A DNA stretch of 41,709 nucleotides from Tsukamurella sp. 8F (GTDB lineage Bacteria > Actinomycetota > Actinomycetes > Mycobacteriales > Mycobacteriaceae): the NCBI RefSeq assembly GCF_029167375.1, contig NZ_JARFTP010000011.1, positions 1-41,709 on the forward strand, given 5' to 3'. A program made the translations under genes and the position numbers. Below, one piece after another: positions 8,400 through 13,352 of this stretch (the stretch's first letter is position 1; every line of letters begins with the position of its first letter). The notes beneath the pieces were generated by a model. It was not told the origin of the DNA, did not search any database, and saw only the letters and a program-made list of their open reading frames with translations.

Positions 8400-9674
8400 T
8401 CAGACGACGTGCGTGAGCGCGTTGCCGACGAGGCCCGCTGCGAGCGTGTTGCCGGACTGCGGCTCGATGAGCAGGAACGAGCCCATCTCGCGATTCACGT
8501 CGTAGTCGTCCGCGACGATCGGCTCGGCGGTGGTCACCGAGATCGAGCCGATCTGGTTCAGTTCGAGTGATTCACCGTCGGCGATGGTCAGTGCCTGCTC
8601 GTCGAAGACGGAGTCCACCGAGCCGACGATCGCCGGCGTGGTACGCGTGCCGTGCTTGAGCAGCAGCCGCGAGCCGACGCGTAGCGGCTTGTCCGCGAGC
8701 CAGCACACCGTCGCGGTGAACTGCTGGCGCGGCTCGGGCGCGTCCTGTGCTGCCACCAGCACGTCCCCGCGCGAGGCGTCGACCTCGTCGGCGAGCACCA
8801 GCGTCACGCTGCGACCCGTGTGCGCAGACTCCAGTTCGCCGTCCGCGGTGTCGATACGCGCAACGGTGGTGCGGGTGCCTGCGGGGAGGACGACGACGTC
8901 GTCGCCGACCGCGATCGTGCCCGCCGCGACCTGGCCCGCGTAGCCGCGGTAGTCCGGGTACTCGGGTGTCCGGGGACGGATCACGTACTGCACCGGGAAA
9001 CGGAAACCGATGGGCGCGGTGTCGGGGTCGGTCGGCACGTTCTCGAGGTACTCGAGCAGTGAGGGACCGTCATAATACGGCGTGTTCACGGAGCGGGTGG
9101 CCACGTTGTCGCCGTGCAGCGCCGACACTGGGATGGCGTGGACCTCGGCGTCCGACCAGCCGAGCGAGCGCATCAGCGTGTGGAACTCGCCGGAGATCCG
9201 GCCGAACACCGCTTCCTGATCGTCCACGAGGTCGATCTTGTTGACCGCCAGAACGACTCGTGGCACCCCGAGGAGTCGGATGACGGCGGCGTGTCGCCGG
9301 GTCTGCTCCACGACGCCCTTGCGTGCGTCGGTGAGCAGTACGACCACCTGGGCTGTGGAGGCGCCGGAGACGGTGTTCCGCGTGTACTGCACGTGGCCGG
9401 GGGTGTCGGCGAGCACGAACGACCGGTTGGGCGTTGCGAAGTAGCGGTAGGCGACGTCGATGGTGATGCCCTGCTCGCGCTCGGCGCGCAGGCCGTCGAC
9501 GAGCAGCGAGAGGTCGGGAGTGTCCAGGCCGCGATCGACAGACGCCCGCGTGACCGCGTCTATCTGGTCCGCGAGAACGGATTTCGTGTCGAACAGCAGG
9601 CGACCGACGAGGGTGGACTTGCCGTCGTCGACGGAGCCCGCAGTGGCGAGCCGGAGAAGCTCGGGGGAGCGCAT
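8400..9674 (-). CDS. cysN: sulfate adenylyltransferase GTPase subunit CysN
   Basis: GTPase that drives APS synthesis from ATP and sulfate together with CysD. The 424-aa protein has G1 GSVDDGKST (13-21), G3 DTPGH (90-94) and G4 NKID (145-148), then two beta-barrel domains. It stops where stand-alone CysN proteins stop: there is no C-terminal APS kinase such as the CysC half of mycobacterial CysNC. Start and cysD stop overlap by one base (TGATG), so it is the last gene of the sir-cysH-cysD-cysN operon. Confidence 0.96.
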   Translation of the reverse strand: MRSPELLRLATAGSVDDGKSTLVGRLLFDTKSVLADQIDAVTRASVDRGLDTPDLSLLVDGLRAEREQGITIDVAYRYFATPNRSFVLADTPGHVQYTRNTVSGASTAQVVVLLTDARKGVVEQTRRHAAVIRLLGVPRVVLAVNKIDLVDDQEAVFGRISGEFHTLMRSLGWSDAEVHAIPVSALHGDNVATRSVNTPYYDGPSLLEYLENVPTDPDTAPIGFRFPVQYVIRPRTPEYPDYRGYAGQVAAGTIAVGDDVVVLPAGTRTTVARIDTADGELESAHTGRSVTLVLADEVDASRGDVLVAAQDAPEPRQQFTATVCWLADKPLRVGSRLLLKHGTRTTPAIVGSVDSVFDEQALTIADGESLELNQIGSISVTTAEPIVADDYDVNREMGSFLLIEPQSGNTLAAGLVGNALTHVV

Positions 9675-10594
9675 CAGAAGTACCCTTCCTTCTTCCGGTC
9701 CTCCATGGCCGCCTCGGACACGCGGTCGTCGCCGCGCGTCGCGCCGCGCTCGGTGAGCCGCGACGCCGCGACCTCGGCCAGGATCGCCTCGTTGTCGGCG
9801 GCCTCGGAGAGGATCGCGCCCGTGGTGGAGCCGTCACCGACGGTGCGGTACCGCACCGAGAGTCGCTGCAGCTCTTCGCCATCGCGCGGACCGCCCCATA
9901 CGCCGGGGGTCATCCACATGCCGTCGCGCTGGTAGACGTCGCGCTGGTGAGCGTAGTAGATCGACGCGAGCGGGATGTTCTCGCGGGCGATGTACCGCCA
10001 CACGTCGAGCTCCGTGAAGTTGCTCAGCGGGAACACGCGCACGTGCTCGCCCGGCGCGTGCCGGCCGTTGTACAGGTTCCACAGCTCGGGGCGCTGGCGC
10101 TTGGGGTCCCACTGCCCGAACGCGTTGCGCAGGCTGAAGATCCGCTCCTTGGCGCGTGCGCGCTCCTCATCGCGGCGACCGCCGCCGAACACGGCGTCGA
10201 AACGGTTCTCGGAGATCGCGTCCAGTAGCGGCACCGTCTGCAGGGGGTTGCGGATGCCGTCGGGCCGCTCCGCGAGCCGGCCGTCGGCGATGTAGTCCTC
10301 GACCGAGGCGACGTGCAGGCGCAGGTTGTGCCGCTCGACCACCTCGTCGCGGAATCGCAGCACCTCGGGCAGGTTGTGGCCGGTATCGACGTGCAGCAGC
10401 GCGAACGGCAGCGGCGCGGGCCAGAACGCCTTCACTGCGAGGTGTAGCAGCACCGTCGAGTCCTTGCCGCCGGAGAACAGGATGACCGGCCGCTCGAACT
10501 CGCCGGCGACCTCGCGGAAGATGTGGATCGCCTCGGATTCCAGGGCGTCCAGGGTGGAGAACGCCGTGCCCGGCTGTGTCGTGGTCTCTGTCAT
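9674..10594 (-). CDS. cysD: sulfate adenylyltransferase subunit CysD
   Basis: Catalytic subunit of ATP sulfurylase, 306 aa. The PP-loop is SGGKDST at 41-47; GGRRDEERARAKERIFS and FPLSNFTELDVWRYI are typical CysD stretches, and the C-terminus (VSEAAMEDRKKEGYF) ends in the usual KxGYF. The frame is open far upstream through cysH, but the ATG at 10594 gives the family N-terminus and forms an ATGA overlap with the cysH stop. Confidence 0.97.
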   Translation of the reverse strand: MTETTTQPGTAFSTLDALESEAIHIFREVAGEFERPVILFSGGKDSTVLLHLAVKAFWPAPLPFALLHVDTGHNLPEVLRFRDEVVERHNLRLHVASVEDYIADGRLAERPDGIRNPLQTVPLLDAISENRFDAVFGGGRRDEERARAKERIFSLRNAFGQWDPKRQRPELWNLYNGRHAPGEHVRVFPLSNFTELDVWRYIARENIPLASIYYAHQRDVYQRDGMWMTPGVWGGPRDGEELQRLSVRYRTVGDGSTTGAILSEAADNEAILAEVAASRLTERGATRGDDRVSEAAMEDRKKEGYF

Positions 10595-11304
10595 GACGTG
10601 TGGAGTCCGCATTCTGTCTTGGCGTTGCCGGCCCAGCGGCCGCTGCGCGGGTCGGAGCCGGGGGCCGGCTTGGTGGTGCACGGTGCGCAGCCGATCGAGG
10701 GGTAGCCCTCGTCCACCAGCGGGTTCACCAGGATGCCGTGCGCATCGATGTAGTCCTGCATCTGCTCGTCGGACCAGGCCACGATCGGGTTGATCTTGAC
10801 CAGTCCGAAGCCCTCGTCGAACGAGATGGCCGGGGCGTGCGCGCGGGTGGGCGCCTCGACCCGGCGGATTCCTGTCACCCACGCGGGGTAGTGGGCGAGA
10901 GTGGTGCGCAGCGGGACGACCTTGCGCAGGCGGCAGCACTCGCCGGGATCGCGCGCGAACAGGTCCTTGCCGAGAGCCGAGTCCTGCTCCGCGACGGTCT
11001 GCTCGGGGGTCACGTTGAGGATCTCGACGTCGTAGACGGCCTCGGCGGCATCCCGCATGCCGATCGTCTCGGGGAAGTGGTAACCGGTATCGAGGAACAG
11101 CACCTTGGGGCGTTCCTGGACCTGCTTCGCGAGGTGCACGAGCACGCCGTCCTGCATGTTCGATGCGACCAGGTAGTCGTCGCCGAAGGTGTCGGCCGTC
11201 CAGCGCAGGAGCGTAAGCGGATCTGCGTCGCCCAGCTCGGCCGCCCCGCGGTCGGCGATCGCACGCAGTTCCTCGGAGGTGGCGGTGCGGGTCGGTGCGC
11301 TCAT
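10591..11304 (-). CDS. cysH: APS reductase CysH (4Fe-4S type)
   Basis: Reduces adenosine 5'-phosphosulfate to sulfite using thioredoxin-like donors. The 237-aa protein has the four cluster ligands of APS reductases, Cys123-Cys124 (PGECCRLRKVVPL) and Cys206/Cys209 (IGCAPCT), and the catalytic Cys232 in the C-terminal ECGLH. The double-Cys/CxxC set separates it from PAPS reductases, which lack the cluster, and fits the absence of APS kinase in this operon. The ATG at 11304 overlaps the sir stop by 4 bases. Confidence 0.96.
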   Translation of the reverse strand: MSAPTRTATSEELRAIADRGAAELGDADPLTLLRWTADTFGDDYLVASNMQDGVLVHLAKQVQERPKVLFLDTGYHFPETIGMRDAAEAVYDVEILNVTPEQTVAEQDSALGKDLFARDPGECCRLRKVVPLRTTLAHYPAWVTGIRRVEAPTRAHAPAISFDEGFGLVKINPIVAWSDEQMQDYIDAHGILVNPLVDEGYPSIGCAPCTTKPAPGSDPRSGRWAGNAKTECGLHTS

Positions 11305-13136
11305 CTCAGGTCCTCCTCGGCGGCCCGGACGGCCCACTGCGCGAAGCGCTCGCCTTCCTCGCGCTGCGCCGCGAACCGCCGTACCACTCGCTCGATGTAG
11401 TCCCCGAGCTCCGTGGACAGCACCTTGTGCTGGCGCAGCTTGCGGCCGAATCCGCTGTCGAGCCCGAGGCTTCCACCAAGATGAACCTGGTAGCCCTCGA
11501 CTTGATTCCCCTCGTGATCGTCCACGAGCTGGCCCTTGAAGCCGATGTCTGCGATCTGCGAGCGTCCGCACGAGTTGGGGCAGCCGTTGATGTTGACGGT
11601 GACCGGAACGTCGAGCTCTGCGTTGAGGTCGGCCAAGCGCCGCTCCAACTCGGGGACCAGCACCTGAGATCGCTTGCGCGTCTCGACGAAGGACAGCTTG
11701 CAGAACTCGATGCCGCTGCATGCGATGAGATTCCGACGCCACAGCGAGGGGCGGCCCTGCAGGCCGAGTGTCGCGAGCTCGTCGATCAGCGCATCGACGC
11801 GATCGTCGGGGACGTCCAGGACGATGAGCTTCTGGTAGGGCGTGAACGACGCGCGGTTCGAACCAGCGCGCTCCATCGCGTCCGCAACGCCGCTGAGGAC
11901 GGTGCCCGAGACCCGGCCTGCGATGGGGGTGAAGCCGACGGCGTTGAGCCCGTTGCGGAGCTTCTGCACGCCGATGTGATCGATGGGGCGGGCGGGCTGC
12001 TCCGGTGCGGGGCCGTCGATCAGCTTCCGGCCCAGGTACTCGTCCTCGAGGACCTGGCGGAACTTCTCGATCCCCCAGTCCTTGATGAGGAACTTCAGCC
12101 GGGCCTTGTTGCGCAGGCGGCGGTAACCGTAGTCGCGGAAGACCGAGACCACGCCTTCCCAGACGTCGGGCACCTCGTCGAGCGGTACCCACGCGCCGAC
12201 GCGCTGCGCCAGCATCGGATTGGTCGACAGACCGCCGCCCACCCAGAGATCGAGCCCCGGGCCGTGCTCCGGATGCACGACACCGACGAACGCCACGTCG
12301 TTGATCTCGTGGACCACGTCCTGCTGGCCCGAGATGGCGGTCTTGAACTTGCGTGGCAGGTTGGAGTACTTCGGGTCGCCGATGTACCGGCGGACGATCT
12401 CGTCGATCGCGGGTGACGGGTCGAGCACCTCGTCGAGCGACTCCCCGGCCAGCGGCGAACCGAGGACCACGCGGGGGCAGTCGCCGCACGCCTCAGTCGT
12501 CTTCAGGCCGACGGCCTCTAGACGCTTCCATATCTCGGGGACGTTCTCGATCTCGATCCAGTGGAACTGCACGTTCTCCCGGTCGGAGAGGTCGGCCGTG
12601 TCCCGGCCGAACTGTGTCGAGACCTCGCCGAGAGTGCGCACCTGAGCCGCGTCGAGCTTCCCGCCGTCGCATCGCACGCGCATCATGAAGTACGGCGCTT
12701 CGAGGAGATCGATGTTCTCGTCCCCCGTGTATGTGCCGTCGTATCCCTGAGCGCGCTGGGTGTACAGACCCCACCAGCGCATCCGGCCGCGCAGGTCGGC
12801 CTTGTCGATCGAGTCGAACCCACCCTTGCTGTAGATGTTCTCGATGCGGGCACGTACGTTGAGCGGGTTGTCGTCCTTCTTGGACTGTTCGTTGGCGTTG
12901 AGCGGTTCGCGGTAGCCGAGAGCCCACTGGCCTTCGGACTTGCGTCGCGTCGGGCGCGCTCTGCGGGCGGGTGCCCCCTCCCTCGCGGGGCGTCCCTCGC
13001 CGGTGGCGCGGGCGGGCCCGCCCTCGCGGGGAGCGCGCGGAGTCCGTGCGGTCCCGGCCGAGCCGGTTCCGTTCTCGTGAGCCGTCGGCGACGCTGAGTC
13101 CGTGTCAGCGGGAACGGCGTCAGCTGTGGACGTCAT
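11301..13136 (-). CDS. sir: ferredoxin-dependent sulfite reductase
   Basis: Siroheme/4Fe-4S enzyme that reduces sulfite to sulfide with six electrons; M. tuberculosis NirA is the characterised relative. Cluster ligands are Cys473 and Cys479 (ACSGIEFC) and Cys519 and Cys523 (NGCPNSCGR). They sit at a constant offset of 56 from those I recall for M. tuberculosis NirA. The same offset puts Tyr125 (GLYTQR) and Cys217 (EACGD) at the Tyr-Cys crosslink next to the siroheme, so this is a sulfite rather than a nitrite reductase. The ATG at 13136 is chosen (611 aa) because AGGAG lies nine bases upstream; an earlier in-frame codon would run into the attenuator. Residues 1-68 are a low-complexity Ala/Pro/Arg/Gly tail. 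First structural gene of the operon. Confidence 0.95.
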   Translation of the reverse strand: MTSTADAVPADTDSASPTAHENGTGSAGTARTPRAPREGGPARATGEGRPAREGAPARRARPTRRKSEGQWALGYREPLNANEQSKKDDNPLNVRARIENIYSKGGFDSIDKADLRGRMRWWGLYTQRAQGYDGTYTGDENIDLLEAPYFMMRVRCDGGKLDAAQVRTLGEVSTQFGRDTADLSDRENVQFHWIEIENVPEIWKRLEAVGLKTTEACGDCPRVVLGSPLAGESLDEVLDPSPAIDEIVRRYIGDPKYSNLPRKFKTAISGQQDVVHEINDVAFVGVVHPEHGPGLDLWVGGGLSTNPMLAQRVGAWVPLDEVPDVWEGVVSVFRDYGYRRLRNKARLKFLIKDWGIEKFRQVLEDEYLGRKLIDGPAPEQPARPIDHIGVQKLRNGLNAVGFTPIAGRVSGTVLSGVADAMERAGSNRASFTPYQKLIVLDVPDDRVDALIDELATLGLQGRPSLWRRNLIACSGIEFCKLSFVETRKRSQVLVPELERRLADLNAELDVPVTVNINGCPNSCGRSQIADIGFKGQLVDDHEGNQVEGYQVHLGGSLGLDSGFGRKLRQHKVLSTELGDYIERVVRRFAAQREEGERFAQWAVRAAEEDLR

Positions 13137-13145
13137 AGGGGTGTG

Positions 13146-13150
13146 CTCCT
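13146..13150 (-). promoter_or_regulatory. ribosome binding site of sir
   Basis: AGGAG on the minus strand, nine bases before the ATG at 13136, decides the start of sir. The upstream stretch UUCCU could pair with it, so the site may be partly masked in the leader RNA. Confidence 0.6.
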
Positions 13151-13165
13151 GGAATCGGGGTGAGG

Positions 13166-13202
13166 AAAAGCGTGGCGCGGGGCTGAGGTGCGCGGGCACG
13201 CT
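13166..13202 (-). terminator. attenuator-type hairpin between leader peptide and sir
   Basis: On the transcript, AGCGUG (13202-13197) pairs with CACGCU (13174-13169). Inside the stem GCGC (13193-13190) pairs with GCGC (13178-13175) after a bulge of three C, around an 11-base loop. Four U follow (13169-13166). It starts 15 bases after the leader stop codon and ends before the sir ribosome binding site, the place expected of a transcription attenuator. Confidence 0.55.
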
Positions 13203-13217
13203 GAGTCGGCGGGACGC

Positions 13218-13292
13218 CTAACAGCTGCAGCTGTTGACCCGCAGGAAATCGATGTGCCGGCGCGAAGCCAGCAGTGCACCCTGTCCGTTCAT
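13218..13292 (-). CDS. cysteine-containing leader peptide of the sulfur operon
   Basis: A 24-codon ORF, ATG at 13292 and TAG at 13218, too short for usual gene calling. Its product contains SRRHIDFLRVNSCSC and ends right after the second Cys. The core SRRHIDxxRVxS is the pattern of the short actinobacterial leader peptides annotated upstream of sulfur genes, and in mycobacteria Cys-rich short ORFs act as cysteine-responsive attenuators. No Shine-Dalgarno is near; a CACAAT hexamer eight bases upstream suggests a leaderless mRNA. Likely role: when Cys-tRNA is scarce, ribosomes stall at Cys22/Cys24 and change folding of the downstream RNA so that sir-cysH-cysD-cysN is expressed. Confidence 0.78.
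   Translation of the reverse strand: MNGQGALLASRRHIDFLRVNSCSC
13220..13235. repeat. perfect 16-bp palindrome over the leader Cys codons
   Basis: AACAGCTGCAGCTGTT is its own reverse complement and covers the last four sense codons plus the first base of the stop codon of the leader ORF. In RNA it can fold as a six-pair stem with a UGCA loop; in DNA it could be a dimer site. Confidence 0.75.
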
Positions 13293-13352
13293 CGGGTGCC
13301 ATTGTGCCACCTGTGGTGCCCGAGACAGGAATCGGGCTGAGACACTGGTGCC

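Follow-up and report, generated by a model that had tools for sequence, protein, structure and literature searches.

The sir-cysH-cysD-cysN row and the short ORF before it

The window, that is the whole stretch of 41,709 nucleotides analysed here from Tsukamurella sp. 8F (contig NZ_JARFTP010000011.1), carries on its minus strand a close-packed row of four genes, sir-cysH-cysD-cysN, named by family matches; when compared with the NCBIfam equivalog models, the sir product scored below their cut-offs. Directly 5' of this sulfur-assimilation operon and on the same strand lies a short ORF with terminal cysteine codons. The features are listed below, where counts out of 88 refer to the unique leader-to-sir segments described in the next section and L022 is the handle of another locus of the genus.

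8400..9674, minus strand: cysN, sulfate adenylyltransferase large subunit (TIGR02034, above cut-off)
9674..10618, minus strand: cysD, sulfate adenylyltransferase small subunit (TIGR02039, above cut-off)
10591..11304, minus strand: cysH, APS/PAPS reductase (NCBIfam NF002537 and TIGR02055, above cut-off)
11301..13136, minus strand: sir, a ferredoxin-type sulfite reductase gene that opens the presumed operon (Pfam PF01077 and PF03460)
13146..13156, minus strand: GATTCCAGGAG, which contains the Shine-Dalgarno sequence and is pairable with leader TTCCTG-c-GGGTC (13247-13236)
13151..13217, minus strand: C-rich, G-poor untranslated spacer of 67 nt from the leader stop to the Shine-Dalgarno sequence
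13166..13202, minus strand: stem AGCGTG/CACGCT followed by a few T, unlikely to be a conserved terminator (present in two of 16 genus genomes, the window's and L022)
13218..13292, minus strand: leader ORF MNGQGALLASRRHIDFLRVNSCSC-stop, 24 codons, from ATG at 13292 to TAG at 13218 (16/16 genus genomes; NF042936 E 2.1e-6, below cut-off)
13220..13235, minus strand: palindrome AACAGC-TGCA-GCTGTT across the Cys codons, a possible 6-bp hairpin
13221..13223, minus strand: fixed Cys codon TGT, last sense codon of the leader (TGT in 88/88)
13236..13262, minus strand: RRHIDFLRV codons, the peptide core (R, R, H, D, R and V invariant in 88/88)
13301..13306, minus strand: -10 box CACAAT of the leader promoter, 8 nt 5' of the leader ATG (position kept in relatives)

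The sequence-only reading from which this analysis started had described a 24-codon ORF ending in Cys-Ser-Cys-stop before sir, with the sir ribosome binding site downstream of it, and both are present on the minus strand, the former at 13292-13218 and the latter as AGGAG at 13150-13146, followed by the sir ATG at 13136. The same reading had placed a hairpin with a U-run 15 nt after the leader stop. The stem indeed exists, its AGCGTG arm (13202-13197) starting 15 nt past the stop and its complement CACGCT (13174-13169) being followed by TTT at 13168-13166, or by four T if the last stem base is counted; its role as a terminator was not confirmed, the stem being found in two of the 16 genus genomes.

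Conservation of the leader, its promoter and its peptide core

The leader ORF stands upstream of sir in all 16 Tsukamurella genomes, the window's own included, and at 78 of the 80 nearest sir loci (the best 80 named loci among the matches listed), the two loci without it being contigs that begin at sir. These 80 loci were retrieved with the sir protein as query and belong to Tsukamurella, Gordonia, Nocardia, Rhodococcus, Prescottella and Aldersonia. Because of these two counts the ORF is beyond chance, and its conservation in related genomes, which had been set beforehand as a refutation test, was thus borne out. For the comparisons below 96 sir loci were collected, from which two without upstream DNA (L061 and L085) were removed, and the remaining 94 gave 88 unique leader-to-sir segments, with some species present twice from two collections; the sir starts of L022, L064, L070 and L090 were set by a pattern rule and that of L099 by its own rule.

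A promoter-like element is placed similarly throughout this set. In 74 of the 88 loci the best -10 hexamer, CACAAT or similar, is separated from the leader start by 7 nt, in the window by 8 nt; a four-of-six -10 match with A2 and T6 no more than 16 nt from the start was found at 84/88 loci, compared with 1.8% of random sites, and a hexamer having A2 and T6 near the leader start at 87/88. A scan for consensus promoters and terminators found none. Since the -10 box is located 8 nt before the ATG and is similarly placed in relatives, the sir mRNA is predicted to be leaderless, starting at or next to the leader ATG.

The best-kept part of the 88 leaders is the peptide core and not the cysteine run. 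The pattern L..RRH(V/I)D..RV is kept in all of them, the V/I exchange being the sole variation, and on the sir-protein tree the seven invariant codons (L, R, R, H, D, R, V) underwent five first-position, no second-position and 81 third-position changes; the third positions of invariant sir codons change at about the same frequency as those of the core (10.6 per site). As the changes are almost all third-position and the amino acids are invariant, the core is conserved as a peptide, with its codons free to change. The number of Cys codons per leader ranges from one to seven, two being found in 32/88 and one in 2/88. The window's two cysteines, previously presented as an unusual arrangement, are therefore ordinary. 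The first Cys of the run is replaced by Asn in 3/88 leaders, the window among them, and those in the middle are variable.

In the comparison with NCBIfam families the window leader reached 27.2 bits (E 2.1e-6) with NF042936, the "Ms4527A family Cys-rich leader peptide", whose cut-off is 45, and 20.1 bits with NF042934, "putative leader peptide", whose cut-off is 27. At E up to 0.01 NF042936 has matches in 89 of 101 order genomes and in none of 14 controls, and only 7/101 order genomes reach its cut-off. The ten best NF042936 loci, with leaders such as LVARRHVDFKRVCTCCCLP, lie upstream of a sir-like frame as judged by eye; some of them are probably mycobacterial, because of their peptide, and Ms4527A itself is presumably a mycobacterial leader before sir. 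The window leader, though under both NCBIfam cut-offs, belongs to the known cysteine-leader type and occupies the place that the Cys-rich leader has before sir in mycobacteria. The earlier recognition of the RRHIDxxRV core as a cysteine-type leader peptide before sir-cysH-cysD-cysN, of a kind known in mycobacteria, is supported by both the family matches and the literature.

Leaders of this type precede other sulfur genes as well. Among ten chosen neighbours the Pfam search found rhodanese, APS kinase, TauE, TauD (in divergent orientation) and siroheme-synthase-like domains, together with luciferase-type, solute-binding, FAD-binding and two regulator domains. A second leader of the window genome, MLTRRRAVDLCRVAGCCCLG (L001; G000:C45:122281-122337, minus strand), stands before a rhodanese-type sulfurtransferase gene and its fixed Cys codon is likewise TGT. 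Another short ORF, MVAERLFGRRYVDLMRDRSAICCR (L003; G000:C34:169199-169249, plus strand), is found before a LysR-type regulator gene and diverges from a TauD-type dioxygenase gene; its family score is weak, yet TGT occupies the fixed place. In other families of the order single-Cys leaders (L130-L135, L171 and others) are located upstream of sir-like frames.

As a separate observation on the window sir gene, its first approximately 50 residues (about 12890-13136, minus strand) are uncovered by most sister-species matches, and the window leader and spacer resemble those of L022, but the sir body is nearer to other species (up to 92% versus 80% identity), so recombination at the 5' end of this sir gene is possible.

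The fixed UGU codon

All 88 leaders have a cysteine 13 codons past the first R of RRH, and it is encoded by TGT in every one of them. On the sir tree this codon never changes, compared with 13 third-base changes in the first Cys codon. The sir genes of the same loci contain 602 TGC versus 12 TGT, and the six invariant Cys columns of sir are TGC in 84 to 88 of the 88 genes. The fixed codon is followed by C in 86/88 leaders of the sir set and in 91/111 of the best listed HMM-found leaders; the window has the T of its stop codon there.

The HMM-found leaders, many of which precede other operons, gave 100 TGT, 11 TGC and one GGG among 112 unique sequences (best matches listed); the peptide profile that selected them is biased towards Cys at this position but is blind to the codon used. 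The first batch included 46 loci, of which L140, L155 and L157 had no leader by the pattern, and the 43 remaining rows gave 40 TGT, one TGC and two others; one of these two, L161, was mis-anchored and reads TGT. From the 80 loci of the second batch L165, L194 and L198 were unanchored, and the 77 rows gave 65 TGT and 12 TGC, nine of these 12 exceptions being from one family, f14. The final tally uses 119 of 123 rows, which yield the 112 unique leaders, and leaves out L154 (TGC) and three unanchored rows; a stricter anchor pattern (73 TGT of 80) was set aside as it drops eight TGC cases and mis-anchors one row. Outside the sir set UGU is thus not absolute, with 11/112 UGC plus L154. Single-Cys leaders make up 70 of the 112 unique HMM-found ones (best matches listed) and carry TGT in 60 of the 70, and the genes downstream of the 77 leaders of the second batch contain 183 TGC versus 10 TGT.

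Several causes of this constancy were considered and rejected. The window palindrome is perfect over 16 bases, the AAC that replaces the first Cys codon turning a G-U into an A-U pair so that the stem gains a pair, and all five inner pairs are possible in 34 of 40 distinct sir-set cores, in 7/112 HMM-found leaders and in 0/70 single-Cys leaders. RNA pairing with codons 9 and 10, possible in these 34/40 cores, does not account for UGU, because C would pair with the usual G too; the hairpin fails in the same role, as none of the 70 single-Cys leaders can form it and yet 60 of them have UGU. A general preference of leaders for UGU is insufficient alone, since the other leader Cys codons are mixed (99 UGC, 75 UGU) or mostly UGC (18 versus 2). 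For a second tRNA-Cys one pattern search, non-exhaustive as the other, found nothing, and the other found one gene, with anticodon GCA. We know of no mechanism that demands UGU; as a guess, the codon might be read more slowly, by wobble, by the single tRNA-Cys found (anticodon GCA). In the consulted parts of the literature on such leaders no mention was found of a peptide core with synonymous changes or of a fixed UGU, and Canestrari et al. 2020 may already cover parts of this.

Proposed attenuation and its relation to known cysteine leaders

The ORF, its conservation, the promoter-like element, the selection at the peptide level and the constancy of UGU are seen directly in the compared genomes. 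In our opinion the leader is quite probably a cysteine-responsive, ribosome-mediated attenuator of sir-cysH-cysD-cysN. According to this proposal the leaderless mRNA would begin at or next to the leader ATG and a ribosome would translate the leader; with ample Cys-tRNA it would read to the stop and leave, and sir expression would stay low. With scarce Cys-tRNA the ribosome would pause on the Cys codons near the end, chiefly on the fixed UGU, while RRHIDxxRV would occupy a set position in the exit tunnel, and the paused ribosome would relieve the repression of sir-cysH-cysD-cysN, either by release of the sir ribosome-binding site or by blocking of Rho on the C-rich spacer. We infer the ribosome pause, its dependence on cysteine and its link to sir. 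The distance between the core and UGU is fixed and is mostly kept even in single-Cys leaders, which suggests a peptide-assisted arrest or pause at this one specific codon. A chance ORF or a remnant without regulation is hardly credible as an explanation of the leader, being opposed by the peptide-level conservation and by the near-universal synteny.

Concerning the main output step of this attenuator, the chances are evenly balanced for translational attenuation, in which leader TTCCTG-c-GGGTC pairs with the Shine-Dalgarno segment listed above and hides the sir ribosome binding site as long as the leader arm is not masked by a ribosome at the Cys codons. That arm lies directly before the Cys codons, the predicted probability of pairing between the Shine-Dalgarno sequence and the leader is 0.89 in the window, and PMC13236596, in the part consulted, explains translation attenuation by a Shine-Dalgarno sequence that is occluded until a ribosome stalls, and assigns M. 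smegmatis cysteine genes to this control. As a conserved switch this pairing was rejected, since it exceeds 0.5 with any part of the leader in 11/88 RNAs (with the RRH..V part in 3/88) and the window value is not beyond shuffles, 19 of 150 spacer shuffles reaching it. Blocking of the Cys region frees the window Shine-Dalgarno sequence only from 0.08 to 0.21; over the 88 RNAs its unpaired probability is 0.33 when free versus 0.35 when a ribosome occupies the Cys codons, and the real spacers do not hide it more than shuffled ones do (0.324 versus 0.297; 44 of 88 RNAs). An Rfam scan of 701 bases around the leader gave one match, with E 10 and off the leader. A Rho-dependent, tna-like step is possible but rather doubtful as the main one: here the paused ribosome would mask a C-rich stretch for Rho loading, and once it had gone Rho would terminate transcription before sir. 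The spacer is C-rich and therefore would suit Rho, its C-G skew being +0.35 in the window (Shine-Dalgarno sequence counted in) and 0.22 on average over 88 loci, compared with a mean of -0.013 (sd 0.108) for 22 five-prime intergenic stretches taken from the window, all of them at or below 0.2; this control comes from one genome, and one of its stretches is the leader region, entered with a wrong sir start. Such composition is only suggestive of Rho, and the first 150 nt of sir are C-rich too (0.13), as is slightly the stretch before the leader (0.055). Rho was proposed for mycobacterial cys operons in 2005 (PMC1262725), in a passage where the authors call the prediction rather weak, but the M. 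smegmatis work is cited as translational control in the consulted parts of PMC13236596 and PMC9031893.

The least likely of the three output models is the intrinsic terminator, where the AGCGTG/CACGCT stem and its U-run would halt transcription unless a stalled ribosome let an antiterminator form; we regard it as very improbable as the main output step. The stem does form in the predicted fold of the leader and recurs with a shorter U-run in L022, but this is one of the 15 other genus genomes, the stem with U-run being missing from 14 of the 16, so that the conserved GC-rich hairpin and U-run of the classical trp-type arrangement were found in 2/16. The U-run is just four bases long, the folding z-score of the whole leader is -0.27, and the consensus scan yielded no terminator. 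Terminator-like sites with loops up to 12 occur in 5/88 leader-to-sir regions versus 7.15 in shuffles, and when loops of up to 30 are allowed, in a looser scan that catches the window's stem, the count is 25/88 versus 27.8. With 14 of the 16 genus genomes lacking the stem and no excess over shuffles in the 88 regions, the earlier suggestion of transcription attenuation by a terminator-like stem is not upheld.

The proposed ribosome-mediated attenuator extends a known cysteine-control system to Tsukamurella and relatives. Seliverstov et al. 2005 (PMC1262725) listed candidate leader peptides of cys operons without terminators in Actinobacteria, and these likewise are, in the text consulted, short ORFs whose Cys codons lie close to the stop, without a conserved terminator and with Rho suggested; that text speaks of runs of Cys codons and mentions no RRH(V/I)D core and no single fixed UGU. 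Ribosome occupancy in M. smegmatis was shown in 2015 for a small leaderless ORF, conserved and with terminal Cys codons, that lies before cysA2 (PMC4633059), and in the same paper, as far as consulted, other Cys-rich small ORFs were noted and attenuation was proposed. The consulted passages of PMC13236596 and PMC9031893 cite Canestrari et al. 2020 for M. smegmatis cysteine genes under translation attenuation via sORFs with cysteine codons. Like these mycobacterial polycysteine leaderless sORFs, the leader described here is located directly before sir, with a -10 box 7-8 nt from its start in the sir set and with terminal Cys codons, and the LVxRRH(V/I)DxxRVC.. core is also found in the best NF042936 hits. 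Unlike them, the window leader has two Cys, Asn in place of the first, a stop right after the fixed Cys and a score below the cut-off. The NF042934 leaders share the same general pattern and their matches precede sulfur genes among others, the window leader being under this cut-off as well. The literature nearest to the UGU and RRHVD point, in the part consulted, is PMC8632094, where uORFC-8-2 before cysS of Rhodobacterales is also a cysteine-codon uORF thought to act by ribosome stalling; it differs in its tandem Cys, dominant UGC and intrinsic terminator, and no RRHVD core is named in that part.

A further reading is plausible, though we place it somewhat short of an even chance: the leaders may be nascent-chain arrest peptides and not plain counters of Cys codons, the core priming the ribosome and the single UGU acting as a sensor that is codon-specific and common to the cysteine network of many operons in Actinobacteria. 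If this is true, the single-Cys leaders, 70 among the 112 unique HMM-found ones of the best matches listed, gain an explanation, and if the constraints on codon and peptide hold, the question shifts from the number of Cys codons to the reason for which a single rare synonymous codon keeps a fixed register with a peptide motif. In arrest peptides of the tnaC type a fixed peptide motif stands at a set distance before the pause site, a C-rich stretch follows the stop and Rho provides the output. The leader resembles this type in the spacing between motif and pause site and in the C-rich stretch, while arrest and direct sensing of a ligand, known for the tnaC type, are putative for the leader described here.
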